IMG/VR virus record: IMGVR_UViG_3300025425_000080
Span: 1-33,819 of that record
DNA: 33,819 nt
Strand: one strand, 5' to 3'
Source: a virus
Below, in pieces: positions 2,609 through 29,519 of this stretch (the first letter of the stretch is position 1; every line of letters begins with the position of its first letter). The translations under genes and the position numbers were made by a program. The notes under the pieces were generated by a model. That model saw nothing but the letters and a program-made list of their open reading frames with translations. It was not told the DNA's origin and made no database searches.

Positions 2609-3310
2609 TTATGCCTCCATTTTGATCAGTTTGACATAGTTGATACGGTTAACTGTTAGCCCGGTATCGTTGTCTGTGGTTTGATTTTTTACATTGGCCC
2701 GGAAGCCAAACACTTCGCCTGTTTTGTATTCAAACTTGTTGCTAAACATAACTAGGTTACCGTCGAAGCCAGCAGTGTAAAAAAATGTTTCGTAGTTAAC
2801 ATTGTATACACGTTTGAGTATTTCAAGCTCACCAATAATTTTTTTATCTTTGATTGCGTGGCTTTCAGCAAACTCTGTCTTGAGGCGTACTTTGTACATT
2901 TTATCTTCAAGTTCGCGTTCTATAAATTGAGGAAGATACGCAATCAATCCCACGCGATTTGCAACAGTTTGTTCTTGCGAATATGCCTTGAATACATCAG
3001 ACTGAAAATCACTCAAATTACCCAAAGCCAGCATGGTATAACGACGCATATGTTTTTCTGCTGTTGCCATTGACTGTTTGTCTTGATCAATAACTTTCAC
3101 AGGAACAAAATCACTGGGCAAGTAAGAGTTGCTGTCTAGATAGAATGCAGCACTAAAAGCAACAATTTCTTTGTTGCTAAAAGTAGTGGGCCGGCCTTCA
3201 CTGTATCGCTTGGTAAATTTTACATAACCGTTGTTAACACGGTGCGCTGCAAAAGTAAGTTCGATTAAAAATTTTGTAGAATACATTTTGAGTTGCAGTA
3301 CATCTGACAT
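2609..3310 (-). CDS. Hypothetical phage protein (233 aa)
   Basis: Not recognised. It is a soluble protein with mixed alpha/beta character and no visible nucleotide-binding or metal motif. The second half is strand-rich (FFYTAGFDGNLVMF, EVFGFRANVKNQ, INYVKLIKM), which could be an OB-like or single-strand-binding fold, but this is only an impression. It is first in its operon behind a strong sigma70-type promoter embedded in an inverted repeat at 3330-3371. Confidence 0.6.
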   Translation of the reverse strand: MSDVLQLKMYSTKFLIELTFAAHRVNNGYVKFTKRYSEGRPTTFSNKEIVAFSAAFYLDSNSYLPSDFVPVKVIDQDKQSMATAEKHMRRYTMLALGNLSDFQSDVFKAYSQEQTVANRVGLIAYLPQFIERELEDKMYKVRLKTEFAESHAIKDKKIIGELEILKRVYNVNYETFFYTAGFDGNLVMFSNKFEYKTGEVFGFRANVKNQTTDNDTGLTVNRINYVKLIKMEA

Positions 3311-9571: not shown

Positions 9572-10088
9572 AAAGTTTCATAGCAAACTCAAAACAGATA
9601 TTTGCTTCGTCTGCCATTTCATCTGTGAGCATGGATCTAACGGTGACTTTAAGTTGTTCTACATTTTCAAAATCGTACATTGTGCCTGACCCAGGATTGC
9701 GTTTACGAATCATCTGACCACCATACATATCACCAAAGTGACGAACATAAAGATGTGCTAATATGTCATGAGTTTCATCTAGATCCATGACATAAGCAAT
9801 GTAGCTACTCGCAGTTGGACATAACAAGTCGATATTGCGCTGAATATTGTATGTTGTTTCTAGTTCTTCTATGTCATTGCGAATAGCTGCTGCTCGACAA
9901 ATGTCTTCAATGCCTGTTAGAACACCTTTGTTACCTGCAACACTTTCTAATGCAGCATATTGCACATATTGATTGTAAATGTATCTATGGTATTCTACTG
10001 GAGTCATACCCTTGAGAAGTTTACGTGCATGTTCCGTACGCTCTGCCTTTTGATGGTTTTCCCAAGTCAAATCTTTTAGTTTATTCAT
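9549..10088 (-). CDS. ho1: Heme oxygenase (HO-1 type)
   Basis: The 179-aa protein starts with a helix containing the proximal-ligand motif N-H12-QKAE, matching VH-x-x-AE of HO-1. The distal-helix Gly motif HLYVRHFGDMYGGQMI (residues 112-127) matches Y-x-R-Y-x-GD-L-S-GGQ. It cleaves heme to biliverdin, CO and ferrous iron with electrons from ferredoxin or a flavoprotein. It is slightly shorter than cyanobacterial HO1 (about 240 aa), mainly at the C-terminus, as in other phage copies. Its ATG overlaps the clpS stop (ATGA) and its end overlaps the bilin reductase gene, giving a coupled clpS-ho-reductase operon. Confidence 0.93.
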   Translation of the reverse strand: MNKLKDLTWENHQKAERTEHARKLLKGMTPVEYHRYIYNQYVQYAALESVAGNKGVLTGIEDICRAAAIRNDIEELETTYNIQRNIDLLCPTASSYIAYVMDLDETHDILAHLYVRHFGDMYGGQMIRKRNPGSGTMYDFENVEQLKVTVRSMLTDEMADEANICFEFAMKLFEELDSE

Positions 10089-10393
10089 GCGTCTTCTTCT
10101 ACCTTAAGACGCAACGGAAATCCGTTGTCTCGAGACAATGTAGTTGCTTCAATGGCTTTTTGTTCAGCAATTTCATAACTATAAATACCAACTACTCCAG
10201 AACCTTCTTCGTGAATTTGTACCGTGATGTTGTTAGCACTTTGCTCGCTGTGTTTAAAGAATTCGATCAACAATGATACAACAAAATCCATCGGGGTTTT
10301 GTCGTCATTTAGCATAATAACTTTGTATCTCTTAGGCTCTTTATTAGTTACTTTAATTTTTTCGTTGATTACTACGTCAGTGTTTGTACTCAT
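10085..10393 (-). CDS. clpS: ClpS-like N-degron adaptor for ClpAP
   Basis: The core reads YKVIMLNDDKTPMDFVVSLLIEFF, then an IHEEGSGVVGIYSYEIAEQKA segment and a final LRLKVEE strand. These match ClpS: the NDD-x-TPM-x-FV pocket that binds N-terminal Leu, Phe, Tyr or Trp, and the x-H-x-x-G-x-x-x-x-G-x-Y-x-x-x-x-A segment. The adaptor delivers N-end-rule substrates to ClpA/ClpP and blocks other ClpAP substrates, including ssrA-tagged proteins. A phage copy could redirect host proteolysis. This fits with the phage tmRNA, whose tag is a Clp substrate. It is coupled to the heme oxygenase gene. Confidence 0.9.
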   Translation of the reverse strand: MSTNTDVVINEKIKVTNKEPKRYKVIMLNDDKTPMDFVVSLLIEFFKHSEQSANNITVQIHEEGSGVVGIYSYEIAEQKAIEATTLSRDNGFPLRLKVEEDA

Positions 10394-10953: not shown

Positions 10954-10964
10954 TATTTATTTAT
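10954..10964 (-). promoter_or_regulatory. Candidate late promoter upstream of hsp20
   Basis: Two overlapping ATAAATA heptamers on the minus strand (10958-10964 and 10954-10960) lie about 50 nt before the hsp20 ATG. Transcription would begin near 10945. They resemble the T4 late promoter core. No sigma70-like box pair is evident in the same gap. Confidence 0.4.
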
Positions 10965-11638
10965 CATTTGCCTATTGTACTAGATTCATACACTGAATTA
11001 TGAGTTTGAGTACAGCGTATAAATGTTGTACATTTAGGCAGTTGCTTGATTGTACCGGCACCTACATAAGTACAAGTCGAACGGACACCTCCGAGGATAT
11101 CCTGTACCGTATTGGCTACAGCACCTCTGTAAGGCACAAGCACTGTGCGTCCTTCTGACGAACGATAGTTTTTCAATCCGCCAAAATGCTTGTCGTTTGC
11201 ACTTTCACTGCTCATACCGTAGAACTGTACAAACTGTTTTGCTTCTACTAATTCTTCGCCGGTGTCATAGTGTATTTCACCAGTCTTAAATGCTCTGTTG
11301 ATAATTTCGCCACCGCCTTCATCGTGTCCGGCAAGCATACCACCTGCCATTACAAAGTCTGCACCAGCAGCAAATGCTTTGGCTACATCGCCAGGGCAAG
11401 TGCAACCGCCATCAGCAATGATATGTCCACCAAGACCGTGAGCAGCATCGGCACATTCGATGACAGCTGAGAGTTGCGGGTAGCCCACACCAGTCTGCAA
11501 TCTCGTCGTGCATACGCTATTATGTACCACTACACCCTCGATATTGTATGAATGATCTTCTTCGACTTCAAGATCATATGTGTATCCATCATATGGTTCA
11601 ATTTCAAGTATATCTATTTCAACTAATTCAAATTTCAT
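10964..11638 (-). CDS. guaC: GMP reductase, C-terminal half, fused to the C-part of a split intein
   Basis: Residues 1-40 are an intein C-part: [19 protein letters not shown], then [19 protein letters not shown], ending in the conserved His-Asn. The +1 residue Ser41 starts the C-extein, [16 protein letters not shown], which carries the catalytic Cys (C43) of GMP reductase. It continues with [42 protein letters not shown] and [12 protein letters not shown] reductase turns GMP into IMP and ammonia with NADPH. The CTTR loop and C-terminal blocks distinguish it from IMP dehydrogenase. Trans-splicing with the product of 12445-13371 would restore a 378-residue enzyme (E. coli GuaC is about 347). 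Confidence 0.9.
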
Positions 11639-12455
11639 CTAAAATACTCCAGTCATTTTCTTTAATTTGTGATTCCCATATAACGAGATATCTATATCCG
11701 TTATCTTCTGCTAATTTTTGTTTTACGATATCGCGTTGCTTTTTATATTCTTGTCGTTCTGTTAATATATTATACACTTCGGGGTTCCCGTGCCAAAAAT
11801 CTCCGTGAACCTCTAAAACAATATTGCTATTTATTAAAAAATCATACTGTGCTTTATTATGTAAAATGAAGTTATACTTAAAATTGACGCCTAACTCTTG
11901 TAACTTTTGTTCTGTTGTTTTTTCTATTTTAGTTTTTTTAGGTCTACTATTAACAGATTTTATTCCCATTAATGAATAATATTCTTTAGGACGTTTGCCT
12001 ACAGTTTTCATAAATTCGGACTGTTTCTTTTTAAATTCATCAGTATGAGTTTTTCCATAAAATCCGTTATCATTGCCATAGCGAGCACATTTTTGGCGAA
12101 GTATTTCTTTGGTCTCGTCCGTGTGTGTTTTTCCATAGAACGCATTATTTTCGCCAACAAATCGATCCTTCATAAAATGCGATTGCTGTTTTTTTGTTTC
12201 CGTAGTATGATTTTTACCATAAAACGGATTACTTTCACCTACTTTGTTGCAACTTTGGCACATATATTCGTTTTTTAATAATGCCGATCTAAAACCTACC
12301 TGCGTTAATGATTTACATTTATAACATCTGATTTCTATTTTGCCTAAATCACCGGAAGAAAGTTTCTCTCCATTTTCAAAGTAGGCAAAATTGTTTCTGC
12401 CTACTTTTTCAAATTTTATAATTTCCACACAATTTTTAAACATTTTAGATTTCAT
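11628..12455 (-). CDS. Free-standing homing endonuclease, NUMOD3 repeats plus Vsr-like nuclease domain
   Basis: After an N-terminal Cys-containing segment (CYKCKS...CQSC, probably a zinc ribbon) come three repeats of the form NPFYGK-x-HT-x-ET-K at about residues 75, 100 and 122. These are NUMOD3 DNA-binding modules. The C-terminal domain (about 185-275) has E[10 protein letters not shown]...[22 protein letters not shown] and [10 protein letters not shown], the Vsr-like PD-(D/E)XK fold of the homing endonuclease family first seen with fractured genes. It overlaps both flanking guaC pieces by about 11 nt, so one transcript encodes all three. Its likely target is the intact guaC gene at the intein site. 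Confidence 0.85.
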
Positions 12456-13371
12456 ATCCTACTCCAATAGCAACTTTTATAGTGTTATATTTATGCTTTA
12501 GAAGTAAATAATCCTTTGTTAAATCTTTTGCTTCGACCCATTCTGCATATTGATGAATATTATCATCTGTTACTGTTTCTCGATGTTTTTTATGTAAAAC
12601 ATAAAACTCGTGATTAGGAGTTGCTTTAATACCATTAATATTAACTATTGATTTTTTATCGTCAAATTTAAATGTATTAGTAACAGTTTTATAAGATCCA
12701 GTGTGAGTTAAAACTTTTTCACCTTGTTTAATATCTTCGATATTCTTTAAACATTTATCAGTCTTAACTTTTTGCCCAGGAGCAAAACATCCAGGACCAA
12801 TGCCCACCTTAATAATATCTGCTCCAGCAAGAATAAGTTCCTCCGTCATTTCTCTTGTAACCACATTACCTGCTATAATAACAAGATGTGGAAAGCGTTT
12901 GCGTACTTCACGAACATGTTCAGCAAAGTGTTCTGAATATCCATTTGCAATGTCAATGCAAACATATTTTAGATTGTCTTCACATTTAGCATACACAGCG
13001 CACAGTTTCTCAAAGTCTGCTGTGCTGGTGCCTATGCTCATAGCCACATAGTCTGTGCGATTAAGTCCGTCACCGTAGAAAAACTCAATCAGTTCTTCCG
13101 CAGTGTAGGTTTTTACAAGGCAGGTAAAGATACCTTGTGCGCCCAACTCATCTGCCATAGCAAATGTGCCGACACCGTCCATGTTAGCAGCCATGATAGG
13201 TACACCTCGATAGTGAGGGTCTTCTGAGCAGTTGTCAGGGAAGTCTGGAATGTAATTTCTAAAATTTGTTTTACGTTCTAGACTAACTTCACTACGACTT
13301 TTAAGTGTGCTGCGCTTGGGCCGGATCAGCACATCCTTGTAGTCTAATTTTACTTCGGACTCTAATTGCAT
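12445..13371 (-). CDS. guaC: GMP reductase, N-terminal half, fused to the N-part of a split intein
   Basis: Residues 1-194 are the N-extein of a GMP reductase-type TIM barrel: LDYKDVLIRPKRSTL, MAANMDGVGTFAMA, CIDIANGYSEHF, IIAGNVVTREMTEELILAGADIIKVGIGPG. From Cys195 the intein N-part begins (CFAPGQKVKT...EDIKQGEKVLTHTG), with the block-B-type T-x-N-H in IKATPNHEFYVL. It ends after about 114 residues. The break falls one residue before the catalytic CTTR loop, so neither half can be active alone. The arrangement closely resembles the IMPDH-1 split intein known from marine metagenomes. It is followed closely by the homing endonuclease gene. Confidence 0.9.
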   Translation of the reverse strand: MQLESEVKLDYKDVLIRPKRSTLKSRSEVSLERKTNFRNYIPDFPDNCSEDPHYRGVPIMAANMDGVGTFAMADELGAQGIFTCLVKTYTAEELIEFFYGDGLNRTDYVAMSIGTSTADFEKLCAVYAKCEDNLKYVCIDIANGYSEHFAEHVREVRKRFPHLVIIAGNVVTREMTEELILAGADIIKVGIGPGCFAPGQKVKTDKCLKNIEDIKQGEKVLTHTGSYKTVTNTFKFDDKKSIVNINGIKATPNHEFYVLHKKHRETVTDDNIHQYAEWVEAKDLTKDYLLLKHKYNTIKVAIGVGYEI

Positions 13372-20564: not shown

Positions 20565-20990
20565 TTGCTGCGCTAAAGTGTAGCAGGTACTTACAGTTTC
20601 AGAGTGGTGCGTTTTGTATCCCACTATTTGTAACCCAATGTCCTAGTCCCAGTTTAACGGGCACATTCTCTTACCCAGCTGATAAAACTATGTTAAACCT
20701 TTTTGCCGTCTGTAAGTGTAAGTTGATTCTGTTACTAGGTTCAACTTACAAAACCCTCACATACCCTTAGGCTGCTATTGCCATCTCTGGCGCTCTATTT
20801 GCGTTTGCATTTAGAATGTTTGACTGAATAACGTAGGTCAACACGAATACCTAAAAATAAGTTTTTAACGCCCGTCGATCCCTTTCGCCCCCGGAGTAAA
20901 ACACACATTTATATATGTGCTTTATGGTGGAGGCGTTGGCCTTCGAAAGCCAAGTCCGGTACATCAATCACCTATTCGTGATTAAACTAT
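20565..20990 (-). ncRNA. ssrA: Circularly permuted two-piece tmRNA
   Basis: On the minus strand the order is acceptor piece, intervening segment, coding piece. The acceptor piece (about 20990-20925) has a T-arm (TTGGC-TTTCGAA-GGCCAA) and ends CGCCTCC-ACCA at 20925. A 32-nt spacer follows, then the coding piece starts GGGGGCG at 20892 and GATCGACGGGCG. GGGGGCG and CGCCTCC pair over 7 bp as the acceptor stem. P2 is TATTCGTG (coding piece, near 20843-20850) with CACGAATA at 20973-20980. The tag frame at 20808-20767 reads ANANRAPEMAIAA-stop. A 9-bp stem (20718-20726 / 20741-20749) follows. This is the permuted form of Alphaproteobacteria and a few other groups. The 3' end is estimated. Confidence 0.92.
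20893..20924 (-). ncRNA. Intervening segment of the permuted tmRNA precursor
   Basis: This 32-nt AU-rich loop joins the CCA end of the acceptor piece to the 5' end of the coding piece. In permuted tmRNAs it is cut out by RNase P and a 3' nuclease. It contains a short CACATATATAAATGTG hairpin. Confidence 0.75.
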
Positions 20991-20999
20991 AAGACAGTA

Positions 21000-21752
21000 T
21001 TATTTCCTATAGTATTCCATTCTACGACCTTTATACCAACCGTTTGGTATCTCGCCGCTCGTGTATTTATTTTCTTTTGTTGTTGGATTATAGATCCAAA
21101 AATTTCCATAAACTCCAGACTTTCTCTTTAGCCTATCTCTTGCTTCTGTAATCCTTATCCATCCTTCTTGTATATTATATACGGAAAAAACTCGTTTGTC
21201 AAGATTGAATCTCGAAGTATCTGTAAGATTTTCTGGAACACACCAGCATTTGTCTTTCATACTATTATTTTCTTTTTGATATTTAGAAACTTTTTTGTAT
21301 GATTCCTTATAGACATCAGGGTTGTCTCTAATCTTCCTTTCTTTAGATTCGTTAGCTTTTTTACTAAGATTTACAACTTCAGGGTCGCCCTTCTTAAATG
21401 AAGTTGATCGAAGTCCACCTCCTTTTTTAGCACCTTTTAATCTTGCTGCTTGGGCAGCAGGCGCCTTATTCCAAGTACTCCATCCTCCGTCGCCTTCTTC
21501 TATTTTAAGATTAGCCCATTCGTTAGATTCGACAATATTAAAACGGTTGCTGTATTCTATGCCCTTTTCTTTAATAACATCTTTACTGTCTGTTATTATT
21601 AATATTTCTGTAGAGATATCAGCACCGTGTTTTTTAAGATGATTTGTCCATCGTGTACCACTGCCTTTATAAGTATATGGGTCAGCAGATGTCTGACCTA
21701 GGTATTTTAATCCTGTTTGATTGTGTGTTTTTACATATAAATAATATGTCAT
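21000..21752 (-). CDS. GIY-YIG homing endonuclease with NUMOD-like tail
   Basis: The N-terminus has YYLYVKTHNQTGLKYLGQT, then a Y-x-GSG-x-RW-x-x-HLKKHG block, the GIY-YIG core with the catalytic Tyr and Arg. A Glu (KEKGIEYSNRFN) follows at the metal site. The middle is basic and linker-like. The tail carries a CWCVPEN segment and FWIYNPTTKENKYTSGEIPNGW, modules typical of phage GIY-YIG endonucleases. It ends 10 nt before the tmRNA acceptor piece, so the tmRNA locus is a likely homing site. Its leader is shared with the HNH gene at 27146. Confidence 0.82.
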   Translation of the reverse strand: MTYYLYVKTHNQTGLKYLGQTSADPYTYKGSGTRWTNHLKKHGADISTEILIITDSKDVIKEKGIEYSNRFNIVESNEWANLKIEEGDGGWSTWNKAPAAQAARLKGAKKGGGLRSTSFKKGDPEVVNLSKKANESKERKIRDNPDVYKESYKKVSKYQKENNSMKDKCWCVPENLTDTSRFNLDKRVFSVYNIQEGWIRITEARDRLKRKSGVYGNFWIYNPTTKENKYTSGEIPNGWYKGRRMEYYRK

Positions 21753-21830
21753 TGCTGGAAATCTCCTTTAGTATTTTTAGAGTAGTTGGGACTGCCATCC
21801 GCGAACTACATTATTATTTATCTAAAAGAG
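21753..21830 (-). promoter_or_regulatory. Leader shared with the HNH homing endonuclease: late-type promoter, hairpin and RBS
   Basis: On the minus strand TAAATAA (in GATAAATAAT) is followed 4 nt later by a hairpin at 21809-21782. This has outer arms GTAGTT/AACTAC and inner GGA/TCC, followed by CTCTA, an AAAGGAG site and CAGCAATG. The same order and spacing occur before the plus-strand HNH gene at 27073-27145. Confidence 0.65.
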
Positions 21831-21897
21831 TTATTTTTGCCCGGTACCGCCCCCAGGTCCAGAATGTGTCCACGTTGTTTCAACGTTTACAAGTTTA
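21831..21897 (-). other. Structured GC-rich segment without a gene
   Basis: This stretch contains a 6-bp hairpin (ACGTTG-AAA-CAACGT, 21872-21886) and a GC-rich block at 21841-21860 with GGTACC at its centre. The block is unlike its AT-rich surroundings. No protein frame is supported. It could be a leader RNA structure or a relic from another genome. Confidence 0.4.
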
Positions 21898-21925
21898 TTT
21901 ATACACTCTTTTTATGATTTGTCAA
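21898..21925 (-). promoter_or_regulatory. Sigma70-type promoter upstream of the GIY-YIG gene
   Basis: TTGACA at 21920-21925 and TATAAA at 21898-21903 are 16 bp apart. It overlaps the stop of the 69-aa gene and would read into the GIY-YIG gene and the tmRNA. Confidence 0.6.
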
Positions 21926-27145: not shown

Positions 27146-27940
27146 ATGAATATTTATATACAGATTATAAGTGATCTCTCACAAAAGAACAAGTATTTTT
27201 CTTGGTGGCAGTCTATGATCGAACGTGGTATACAAAGAGCCAGCACTCGAGAAGAAGCCAAATCTCTGCTAGGATATGTAGAAGGACACCACATAGTGCC
27301 TGTTAGTTTTAACCTCGGTGGCAAAAACGATAGCGATAACTTTGTTTATCTTACTGCAAAAGAGCATATTATGATACATAGACTAATGTGTAAATTTCTC
27401 ACTAATGAATATAGAATAAAATCATTGAGAGCATTTCATTGCATGTGCTTTAAAGATAACGGTGGTCAAAACAAAAGATTAGCATCGCTACACCAGTTAG
27501 CAAAAGCAAGAGAGGCAGTATCTGAATCGAACAAAGGCAAACGAGGCCCAATCGGTGTTCCAGCCTGGTTTACAGAATCAACCGATTTTGATATTTTTTG
27601 CGATCGATTAGGAGAATTGGTAGCAGAAGGATTAAGTGATCCGCAAATAGGTAAAAAGTATGACGTAAGTGCTACCGCTATTTTTAATTGGAGAAATAAA
27701 CTAAATCTCAGAAGACGTCGATGGCAACTGAGAGATAAAAAATGGTTACACAATCACTATGTGAATAAAAAATTGTCTGCAGAGAAAATTGCGTCTCTAA
27801 TAGGTTGCAGCGGAACAGCCGTTCAACAATATTTGATTAAATTTAATATACCTATTAGAGACGCAAACGAACGCCAAAAATCAAGAACTGATCGGAAGAT
27901 ACTCACCAGTAATGTTGTGACGAACTGCCAACAAGGTTAG
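27146..27940 (+). CDS. HNH homing endonuclease (only plus-strand gene)
   Basis: The 264-aa protein has an HNH core at about residues 45-80: YVEGHHIVPVSFNLGGKNDSDNFVYLTAKEHIMIHRLM (His-His, Asn, His). C-terminal helix-turn-helix-like segments follow (LSDPQIGKKYDVSATAIFNWRNK and LSAEKIASLIGCSGTAVQQYLIK) that should read the target DNA. It lies in opposite direction inside the RNA-ligase locus, between the two rnlA parts. Its last 60 nt overlap the 3' end of the N-part, so its extreme C-terminus is read from the complement of rnlA. Confidence 0.88.
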   Translation: MNIYIQIISDLSQKNKYFSWWQSMIERGIQRASTREEAKSLLGYVEGHHIVPVSFNLGGKNDSDNFVYLTAKEHIMIHRLMCKFLTNEYRIKSLRAFHCMCFKDNGGQNKRLASLHQLAKAREAVSESNKGKRGPIGVPAWFTESTDFDIFCDRLGELVAEGLSDPQIGKKYDVSATAIFNWRNKLNLRRRRWQLRDKKWLHNHYVNKKLSAEKIASLIGCSGTAVQQYLIKFNIPIRDANERQKSRTDRKILTSNVVTNCQQG

Positions 27941-28474
27941 TGTATCTTCTTCGTATGGAAGAACAATTTGATTGAATGGACTACACCATTCAAAAATTGG
28001 AGTTAGTTTTTCACTGATACACCAGGCAGCGAAGTCTTTGTATCGAGTGTTTTTGGCTATAAACTCTTCGGCTTGCATAGCCACTTCAGTGATTCCCATT
28101 TTAGTCATCCAACGGATATAACCATCAACTAGCATAGGGTGAATCATTGATCCATCCAGTTTTTCCATGATAACATGAGGCTGTGATAGATTAACTAAAT
28201 GCGGCTGAGTTTCTTCCTTTTCACCAACATTAAAAAATTTCACAAACGGACGAGCAGCAATTTCACCGCTTGGGGCGAACTTCAAGCCTCTACACTCACG
28301 TCGAACAGCACCACCTAAGTCATCGGGCCCAGTCATATTGAAGGTGTCAGCCATAGCCACCACATAGTTTACCACACTATATCCTTCACGCTCTGCTACG
28401 ATAAATTCGTCGCGGCCTTCAATGTGAGGAAGCACATCATCAAGATGACGGATTTCAGGGAATTGATAGTTCAT
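27881..28474 (-). CDS. rnlA: RNA ligase 1 (RnlA-type), N-terminal nucleotidyltransferase part
   Basis: The 197-aa protein contains RECRGLKF (residues 59-66), motif I EKLDGSM with the AMP-accepting Lys105, and motif III FEWCSP (161-166). It then reads LLAVRHNITGEYLP and stops two residues later. T4 RnlA continues here into motifs IV and V, which lie at 26447-27004. RnlA seals tRNA anticodon nicks made by host defence nucleases. The start follows a promoter within a 9-bp inverted repeat (28494-28525). Whether the two parts assemble into an active ligase is unknown. Confidence 0.88.
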   Translation of the reverse strand: MNYQFPEIRHLDDVLPHIEGRDEFIVAEREGYSVVNYVVAMADTFNMTGPDDLGGAVRRECRGLKFAPSGEIAARPFVKFFNVGEKEETQPHLVNLSQPHVIMEKLDGSMIHPMLVDGYIRWMTKMGITEVAMQAEEFIAKNTRYKDFAAWCISEKLTPIFEWCSPFNQIVLPYEEDTLTLLAVRHNITGEYLPISS

Positions 28475-28493
28475 AATCTTTACTTTCTTTTGT

Positions 28494-28534
28494 GTCTACT
28501 CTCATACTATAGCACAAGAGTAGACTGTTGTCAA
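28494..28534 (-). promoter_or_regulatory. Sigma70-type promoter inside a 9-bp inverted repeat
   Basis: TTGACA at 28529-28534 and TATAGT at 28506-28511 are 17 bp apart. Arms GTCTACTCT (28517-28525 on the minus strand) and AGAGTAGAC (28494-28502) flank the -10 box, as at 3330-3371. Confidence 0.75.
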
Positions 28535-29070
28535 GCAGGTTCTGCGTAGTCAATTCCAAGCAAGGCCCCGTGCATATCATAGAAGGTGATCATATCAAAC
28601 CCTTCGTCAGCAGTGGGCATCACAAACGATTCAATCATATTGCTCAAGATGTGCTGTGGGATAGTCTTGCCAGGACGATTTGCAAGACGCTGTGCCCAAT
28701 CTTCCTTGTCACCTGAGTAATCGCTTGCAGGTGGAACAATACACTCACAGCGAACCTGATAGCCAGCCTGACGCATACGATTGATAATCTTTGCTCGCTT
28801 CTTAACTCCCAAGGTGGTTTGGTCCCAGATGATGTCCTGGCGTTCTTTGATAGCATAAGCAAGATCAATATCGGCTTCTGCTGTAGCACTTTTGATATGC
28901 TTCTCAAACACCTCGTCATAGGTCTTGCCCAAGAATTTAGCAATACGTTCAAGAATGTTGTCAGTGCTGTAGACAAACACATCAGGATCTATTGTGCTCA
29001 TATCGCGAACACGAGTTGACTTGCCCATTGCAGGCAAGCCAACCATTACAGTGCAGATAGGCTTAGACAT
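28531..29070 (-). CDS. pseT: Polynucleotide 5'-kinase (PseT kinase domain, free-standing)
   Basis: Walker A GLPAMGKST lies at residues 11-19, with a Thr-Asp-Asn region (VYSTDNIL), a lid Arg segment and DIIWDQTTLG matching the T4 Pnkp kinase. The domain phosphorylates 5'-OH ends of RNA or DNA with ATP. In T4 it is fused to a 3'-phosphatase. Here that domain is a separate upstream gene, joined by a TAATG overlap. It supplies 5'-phosphates for RNA ligase. The symbol follows T4 usage. Confidence 0.85.
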   Translation of the reverse strand: MSKPICTVMVGLPAMGKSTRVRDMSTIDPDVFVYSTDNILERIAKFLGKTYDEVFEKHIKSATAEADIDLAYAIKERQDIIWDQTTLGVKKRAKIINRMRQAGYQVRCECIVPPASDYSGDKEDWAQRLANRPGKTIPQHILSNMIESFVMPTADEGFDMITFYDMHGALLGIDYAEPA

Positions 29071-29519
29071 TAGAAGTCCTCCTCACCTTGGTACACGTTG
29101 AACACAAAGATACCGTTATCACGCCACATGCGAACCACTCTGGGCCTATCATCAAACACCATGTCAGGCTTGCGATTAAACGCAAGAACAATATCGTCCA
29201 GGATTTCCTGCTTCACAATGTCGTCGCTGCGGAAGTCGTCTGCCTTACGCATCCACAGATGCGAACTTGGCATCCAGAATTCGTTGGCATCCAGCCACGC
29301 GACTGTAGCATCTCGAGTGCGCTCATTACGCCCGCTGGCAAACACAATGTCGTGTCCTGCGTCACGCAGTGCAAAGAACGCAGCCGCAACGTAAGGGTTC
29401 ACAGCATCATTGGGGATGCCAGCGTCAAACGCCTTCCAGTTCTTTGGCTTGCTGCGAACATAGTCCAGCCGATGCTCGATGTTAGCAAGAGTTCCGTCAA
29501 TATCAAATACTACTAGCAT
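29070..29519 (-). CDS. Polynucleotide 3'-phosphatase (HAD domain of Pnkp, free-standing)
   Basis: The protein begins MLVVFDIDGTLANIEHR, the HAD D-x-D-G-T motif, with later FASGRNERTRDATVAWL (motif II), K154-like MRKADD-x-R-x-DD-x-VK and VFDDRPRVVRMW (DD motif). This matches the T4 Pnkp C-terminal domain, including the R-x-x-D-x-x-VK block. It removes 3'-phosphate or 2',3'-cyclic phosphate so that ends can be ligated. It is the first gene of a two-gene unit behind a promoter at 29552-29580. Confidence 0.85.
   Translation of the reverse strand: MLVVFDIDGTLANIEHRLDYVRSKPKNWKAFDAGIPNDAVNPYVAAAFFALRDAGHDIVFASGRNERTRDATVAWLDANEFWMPSSHLWMRKADDFRSDDIVKQEILDDIVLAFNRKPDMVFDDRPRVVRMWRDNGIFVFNVYQGEEDF

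Follow-up and report, generated by a model that had tools for sequence, protein, structure and literature searches.

In this work we ask how a phage gene for tmRNA (ssrA) came to stand directly behind a putative homing endonuclease gene and a truncated second acceptor piece, and whether its RNA is still complete. The locus lies in a stretch of 33,819 nucleotides from IMG/VR virus record IMGVR_UViG_3300025425_000080, which was analysed at its full length and is called the window here. In our reading the phage two-piece tmRNA that it holds is complete, and a free-standing homing endonuclease has probably remodelled the gene.

The original prediction, a circularly permuted tmRNA on the minus strand, was confirmed. 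Rfam model RF04321 (tmRNA_permuted) matched 20988-20767 (-) with 92.3 bits against a cut-off of 47 (E 8.5e-17), RF01849 (alpha_tmRNA), the covariance model proposed for checking the locus, matched 21043-20717 (-) with 82.2 bits against a cut-off of 50, and ARAGORN called a permuted form (tmRNA*) at 21020-20676 (-) with the tag ANANRAPEMAIAA. The predicted 7-bp acceptor pairing and 8-bp P2 can both be read directly from the sequence, the tmRNA is of alphaproteobacterial type, and the tag was rightly described as having an A-N start and an A-A end. The parts of the RNA are:

20925..20988 (-): acceptor piece, putatively functional (sequence reading, Rfam, ARAGORN)
20980-20973 (-): P2 strand of the acceptor piece, CACGAATA (read from the sequence)
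20953-20936 (-): T arm of the acceptor piece (read from the sequence)
20935-20929 (-): acceptor 3' strand CGCCTCC, then ACCA at 20928-20925
20893..20924 (-): intervening segment of 32 nt, containing a hairpin
20717..20892 (-): coding piece (sequence, Rfam, ARAGORN)
20892-20886 (-): acceptor 5' strand GGGGGCG of the coding piece
20849-20842 (-): P2 strand of the coding piece, TATTCGTG
20841-20837 with 20824-20820 (-): PK1, upstream of the tag
20767..20808 (-): tag reading frame, ANANRAPEMAIAA and stop, with the resume codon present and a hydrophobic AA end
20756-20752 with 20741-20737, and 20749-20742 with 20725-20718 (-): 3' pseudoknot

The CCA-bearing acceptor piece is located upstream of the coding piece, the acceptor stem has 7 pairs including G3-U70, and the intervening segment would be expected to be removed by processing. 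P2 consists of 8 Watson-Crick pairs; taken alone it is weak support, because 5 of 317 mismatched combinations of phage tmRNAs also gave an 8-bp match between P2-type regions, but the two covariance models concur on the gene. Tested blind on phage tmRNAs, P2 told little, with a mean of 5.4 for own pairings and 5.0 for foreign ones, and the gain on cofolding the two pieces (-11.3 kcal/mol) differed modestly from that with shuffled acceptor pieces (-6.9 ± 3.2 kcal/mol). Among phage relatives, compensatory changes were noticed in the acceptor stem (GGGGTCG/CGACTCC, GGGCTCG/CGGGTCC, GGGGATG/CATCTCC, GGGGGTG/CACCTCC). The alanine determinant G3-U70 was kept in 107/107 phage tmRNAs in a scan that itself required G3 and U70, and also in covariance-model matches for which only GG at the start was demanded. 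A paired T stem is present in 99 of these 107, and three positions vary with compensatory changes. Because the stems covary while G3-U70 stays, the tmRNA of the window is, by these comparisons, a real and selected RNA gene. Nor is the locus an assembly accident, since 13 IMG/VR contigs share an identical endonuclease and, wherever a contig includes the tmRNA, the same tag.

The phage two-piece tmRNA as such is an already known kind, and the supposition that a permuted form is unusual in a T4-like phage was not borne out. PMC9004378 describes two-piece tmRNAs in the T4-like phages Melnitz and Mosig; two-piece forms account for 53 of the 133 distinct phage tmRNAs in its count, and 50 of these are marine or aquatic. 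In IMG/VR, each of two pattern scans returned at least 120 matches to the permuted arrangement. The phage is of marine type. The label 'T4-like' is reasonable for the phage group, since longer contigs of several relatives encode T4 gp23, but the window fragment itself contains no capsid gene. A permuted tmRNA was present in 28 of 50 contigs with an alternative oxidase resembling that of the window, a gene with more than 400 IMG/VR matches but only one in 50,697 annotated phage records:

19555-20142 (-): alternative oxidase, just downstream of the tmRNA (PF01786, E 9.7e-79)

Host SmpB would have to serve the tmRNA, since no SmpB gene was found among 20 related contigs. The idea that the tag points to the host lineage is weak: its NRAP portion is Rhodobacteraceae-like, ANxNRAP tags being typical of Rhodobacteraceae in our tag comparison, but no bacterial tag matched in full. 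The tag ANxNRAPEMAIA was absent from 84,980 species genomes, no xPEMA tag occurred in 385 alphaproteobacteria, and the tmRNAs closest to that of the window are those of other phages. With no matching bacterial tag and only the NRAP part Rhodobacteraceae-like, host assignment by tag was rejected. Unusually long tags were seen in other phage tmRNAs, namely the 29-aa ANDNALSNVTFVDFSAPVTAVNEDFALAA (L024, L028, L048, L056) and AKKSTTFASILPVKVERVSLVQEALAASA (L033, L037), the latter having no AA end and possibly being an ARAGORN misreading.

Intervening segments of 70-130 nt occur in many phage tmRNAs (L203, L204, L210, L213, L480, L482 and others among the matches listed) and contain, besides a TAGATACACT..AGTGTATCTTTGAT hairpin, a structured insert that varies; bacterial segments in the comparison set measure 10-48 nt. 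No Rfam family fitted the long phage segments. Expanded segments of 98-130 nt in L481, L206/L151 and L214/L157 contain a small ORF with a Shine-Dalgarno sequence and ATG, the products being predicted membrane peptides (MNDFEQFPPIEGNNTSIACPMIIIGMIVVSVLIFLF, MYDLIFNKFYYILVGVLIGFMINAVFF) and a Cys-rich peptide (MKVCWCKVKDTIKQCWCFCKKKCGC). Such ORFs were found in 3 of 99 long segments, with 0.65 expected from shuffles.

Upstream of the acceptor piece the following elements, which the original prediction did not include, were located:

21896..21925 (-): promoter, TTGACA (21925-21920), 16-nt spacer and TATAAATA (21903-21896)
21839..21895 (-): remnant of a resident-type tmRNA acceptor piece (sequence reading and similarity)
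21763..21830 (-): leader hairpin over the endonuclease Shine-Dalgarno (-18.4 kcal/mol, z -2.8)
21822-21815 (-): late-promoter-like GATAAATA, inside the leader hairpin
21000..21752 (-): putative free-standing GIY-YIG (SegE/SegB-like) homing endonuclease, 250 aa (homology)

The endonuclease ORF ends 12 bases short of the point where the Rfam match to the tmRNA begins. Its product is 47% identical to the corresponding protein of L503 and 33% to that of L509, both of which pass the Pfam cut-off of SegE_GIY-YIG (E 2.4e-6 and 9.6e-6, respectively). The window protein itself had no match of relevance in Pfam at thresholds up to E 10; it has a YLY...YLG motif, and its single-sequence AlphaFold model was poor (pLDDT 47) and unfit for structure search. 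By homology the ORF is putatively assigned as a GIY-YIG (SegE-like) homing endonuclease. The remnant breaks off where the T arm ends and has neither the acceptor 3' strand nor CCA. It is 98% identical over 53 nt (E 8e-20) to the intact acceptor piece of the endonuclease-free relatives L151/L206. The functional acceptor piece, outside its own population, resembles only those of the endonuclease-linked L504 (83% over 76 nt) and L503, and this piece and the remnant represent different sequence types.

Recurrence of this layout was searched for with endonuclease matches and with the endonuclease C-terminal codons adjoining an acceptor piece; further matches to these codons were rejected as low-complexity chance hits. 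The endonuclease C-terminus abuts a tRNA-like domain in six distinguishable loci, i.e. the window population, L503, L504, L509, L132 and L519. Four phages (window, L503, L504, L509) have the full layout of promoter, truncated acceptor piece, endonuclease, tRNA-like domain and tag half; L132 and L519 fit it but are short of upstream sequence or of the full endonuclease. In 4/4 loci with upstream sequence the acceptor piece is truncated and lacks CCA, the break always falling after the T arm and before the CCA end. In L504 the endonuclease is broken and the adjacent tmRNA intact, as would be expected of a decay stage of a homing gene.

These observations bear on the alternative that survives best, namely an ordinary phage tmRNA with an unrelated endonuclease upstream by chance, the remnant having arisen by ssrA duplication and decay, with no homing. 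Free-standing endonucleases do adjoin many phage genes (PMC2988022, PMC10448857), and tRNA clusters are hot spots (PMC13096335). A chance neighbour is nevertheless hard to reconcile with four distinguishable phages repeating the same order of elements with the same position of the break, and a simple duplication with a remnant that differs in sequence type from the functional copy; we consider this alternative unlikely.

Remodelling by a homing endonuclease is further suggested by mosaicism, seen in two pairs among the six loci, each with an endonuclease-free partner (L162, L599). Identity between L132 and L162 drops from 0.88 in the tag half to 0.62 in the tRNA-like domain; the 40 endonuclease-free pairs of like tag-half identity never fell below 0.73 in that domain. 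For L509 and L599 the values are 0.82 and 0.65, the minimum in 104 endonuclease-free pairs being 0.67. Layout, recurrence and mosaicism are thus read from the sequences themselves. A single shared lineage of the endonuclease-linked tRNA-like domains was unsupported: one common cassette does not follow, because their mutual identity (0.63) is only slightly greater than that to others (0.57), and independent insertion events or divergence at a later stage would be compatible as well.

Two further loci were noted. In L505 an endonuclease with a similar N-terminal half adjoins a gene reading as phosphatase, of which a 60-nt stretch at the end is duplicated (57/60 identical); this suggests a similar way of insertion into a different gene. 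L506 (Pseudoalteromonas phage vB_Psh_XG4) has, at about 3000-3130, a comparable endonuclease C-terminus followed without a gap by a tRNA-Tyr-like sequence, which was not called by ARAGORN; another tRNA-Tyr lies nearby.

Two alternatives concern the RNA and the break. The phage tmRNA could be a decoy or poison of host trans-translation, like the CDS-less DS6A form, instead of a working rescue RNA; DS6A RNA inhibits endogenous tmRNA in E. coli, as cited in PMC11915505, but the window RNA retains an intact tag with its stop codon, intact pseudoknots and an intact alanine determinant, and the AA end of the tag is kept in endonuclease-linked relatives, which makes a decoy improbable. The other alternative places the endonuclease within a spliced element at the T arm, a group I intron or something similar, which would make exons of the remnant and the downstream part. 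It would agree with bacterial tmRNA introns in the T-loop region (PMC11915505) and a break here in the T arm, but is very improbable, as no Rfam intron family was matched even at E 10, neither intron structure nor exon continuity was found at the locus, a complete T arm is present in the downstream copy itself, and the acceptor strand missing from the remnant lies at no junction.

Among known systems, the tmRNAs of Melnitz (a Methylophilales phage) and Mosig (a Pelagibacter phage) are likewise permuted and of alphaproteobacterial type, in T4-like phages of aquatic bacteria. They have a predicted glutamine riboswitch, whereas the window locus matched no intron or riboswitch in Rfam, even at E 10; the accessible part of PMC9004378 reports no endonuclease or remnant at their ssrA, whereas the window has both. 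SegB of T4/T6 is a free-standing GIY-YIG endonuclease at tRNA-type genes, as is predicted for the window protein, and cuts within tRNA genes (PMC2988022, PMC13096335), and its late promoter and hairpin over the Shine-Dalgarno sequence (PMC2988022) resemble the window leader. SegB at tRNA genes (PMC13096335) is the nearest known case for the mechanism proposed here, with the differences that the presumed target would be tmRNA and that a truncated resident copy and a replacement tRNA-like domain flank the endonuclease. In the group I intron form of tmRNA (PMC11915505) a mobile element likewise interrupts ssrA, within the T-loop region, whereas in the window no intron was detected and function was seemingly restored by a second domain copy, not by splicing. 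A search of open-access papers for homing endonucleases with tmRNA in phages yielded no title or abstract on such an arrangement.

As to expression, TATAAATA is a sigma70-like -10 element and also an exact T4 late-promoter box; an exact copy precedes 63 of the 109 distinct phage tmRNAs, in most cases 70-72 nt ahead of A73 (0.7 in shuffles; 0/123 bacterial tmRNAs), and is often preceded by TTGACA about 17 nt earlier. The pattern fits a host-type promoter that would also carry a T4 late box. Early expression of phage tmRNA was proposed in PMC9004378. L509 has a similar leader layout, with TATAAATA within the corresponding hairpin. A late promoter and a Shine-Dalgarno hairpin act as a switch in I-TevI and SegB, and RNase E processes segB and segG transcripts (PMC2988022); RNase E-type processing could plausibly free the downstream tmRNA here. 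We propose that the tmRNA may be expressed from the distant upstream promoter; an unrecognised promoter near 21020 is possible.

The best reading of the locus is that a SegB-like homing endonuclease entered ssrA and would move with a replacement tRNA-like domain, the tmRNA staying functional. For cleavage, mobility, processing and trans-translation we infer the following course. The endonuclease would cut the acceptor/CCA region of ssrA in phages devoid of it, and repair from an endonuclease-bearing phage would copy the endonuclease together with the linked divergent tRNA-like domain (co-conversion; intronless homing). The replacement domain, probably uncleavable, would remove the target and keep the RNA working, so that the gene survives. 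The transcript from the old promoter would run through the remnant and the endonuclease into the tmRNA, with the endonuclease Shine-Dalgarno hidden in the hairpin; on late transcripts it would be free, as in T4 endonucleases. Host RNases would release the two pieces; with SmpB and AlaRS from the host, these would rescue ribosomes that have stalled and mark proteins with the tag for proteolysis by Clp.

Other genes of the window were recorded as well:

10085..10393 (-): ClpS adaptor gene, possible functional partner (PF02617, E 1.1e-29)
10964-13371 (-): IMP dehydrogenase/GMP reductase gene, two ORFs with intein N and C ends
27881-29519 (-): T4 RnlA-like RNA ligase (197 aa), with polynucleotide kinase and phosphatase in separate ORFs
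27146-27940 (+): ORF with a weak HTH match, opposite the RNA ligase region

In relatives clpS is on the same strand as the tmRNA, usually 4-18 kb apart. ClpS was found in 10/12 AOX contigs with tmRNA and 0/8 without, and in 7/11 and 2/13 RNR contigs, respectively. As a general phage-tmRNA partner it was rejected, because only 3/14 other tmRNA-bearing contigs have it and lineage explains the co-occurrence equally well. A NUMOD3 endonuclease ORF lies between the two IMP dehydrogenase/GMP reductase ORFs, and this locus resembles the fractured, split-intein genes already known. The ligase, kinase and phosphatase possibly serve tRNA repair.

There is, in our estimate, an even chance that phage ssrA hosts a whole family of mobile units. 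In each unit an acceptor-region endonuclease would be coupled to a cleavage-proof tRNA-like domain, and the units would repeatedly make chimeric tmRNAs with the rescue RNA as homing cargo. Phage-encoded permuted tmRNAs are known, but to our knowledge their role is unexplained. What we did not find described is an ssrA split by a putative homing endonuclease gene that apparently supplied a replacement tRNA-like half, recurring in several phages. The widespread late-box promoter, and an endonuclease that seemingly replaces half of the RNA and leaves it functional, make the phage need for tmRNA, and its timing, testable; also testable is whether tmRNA variants pass from phage to phage with homing endonucleases, in the way that SegB spreads tRNAs.
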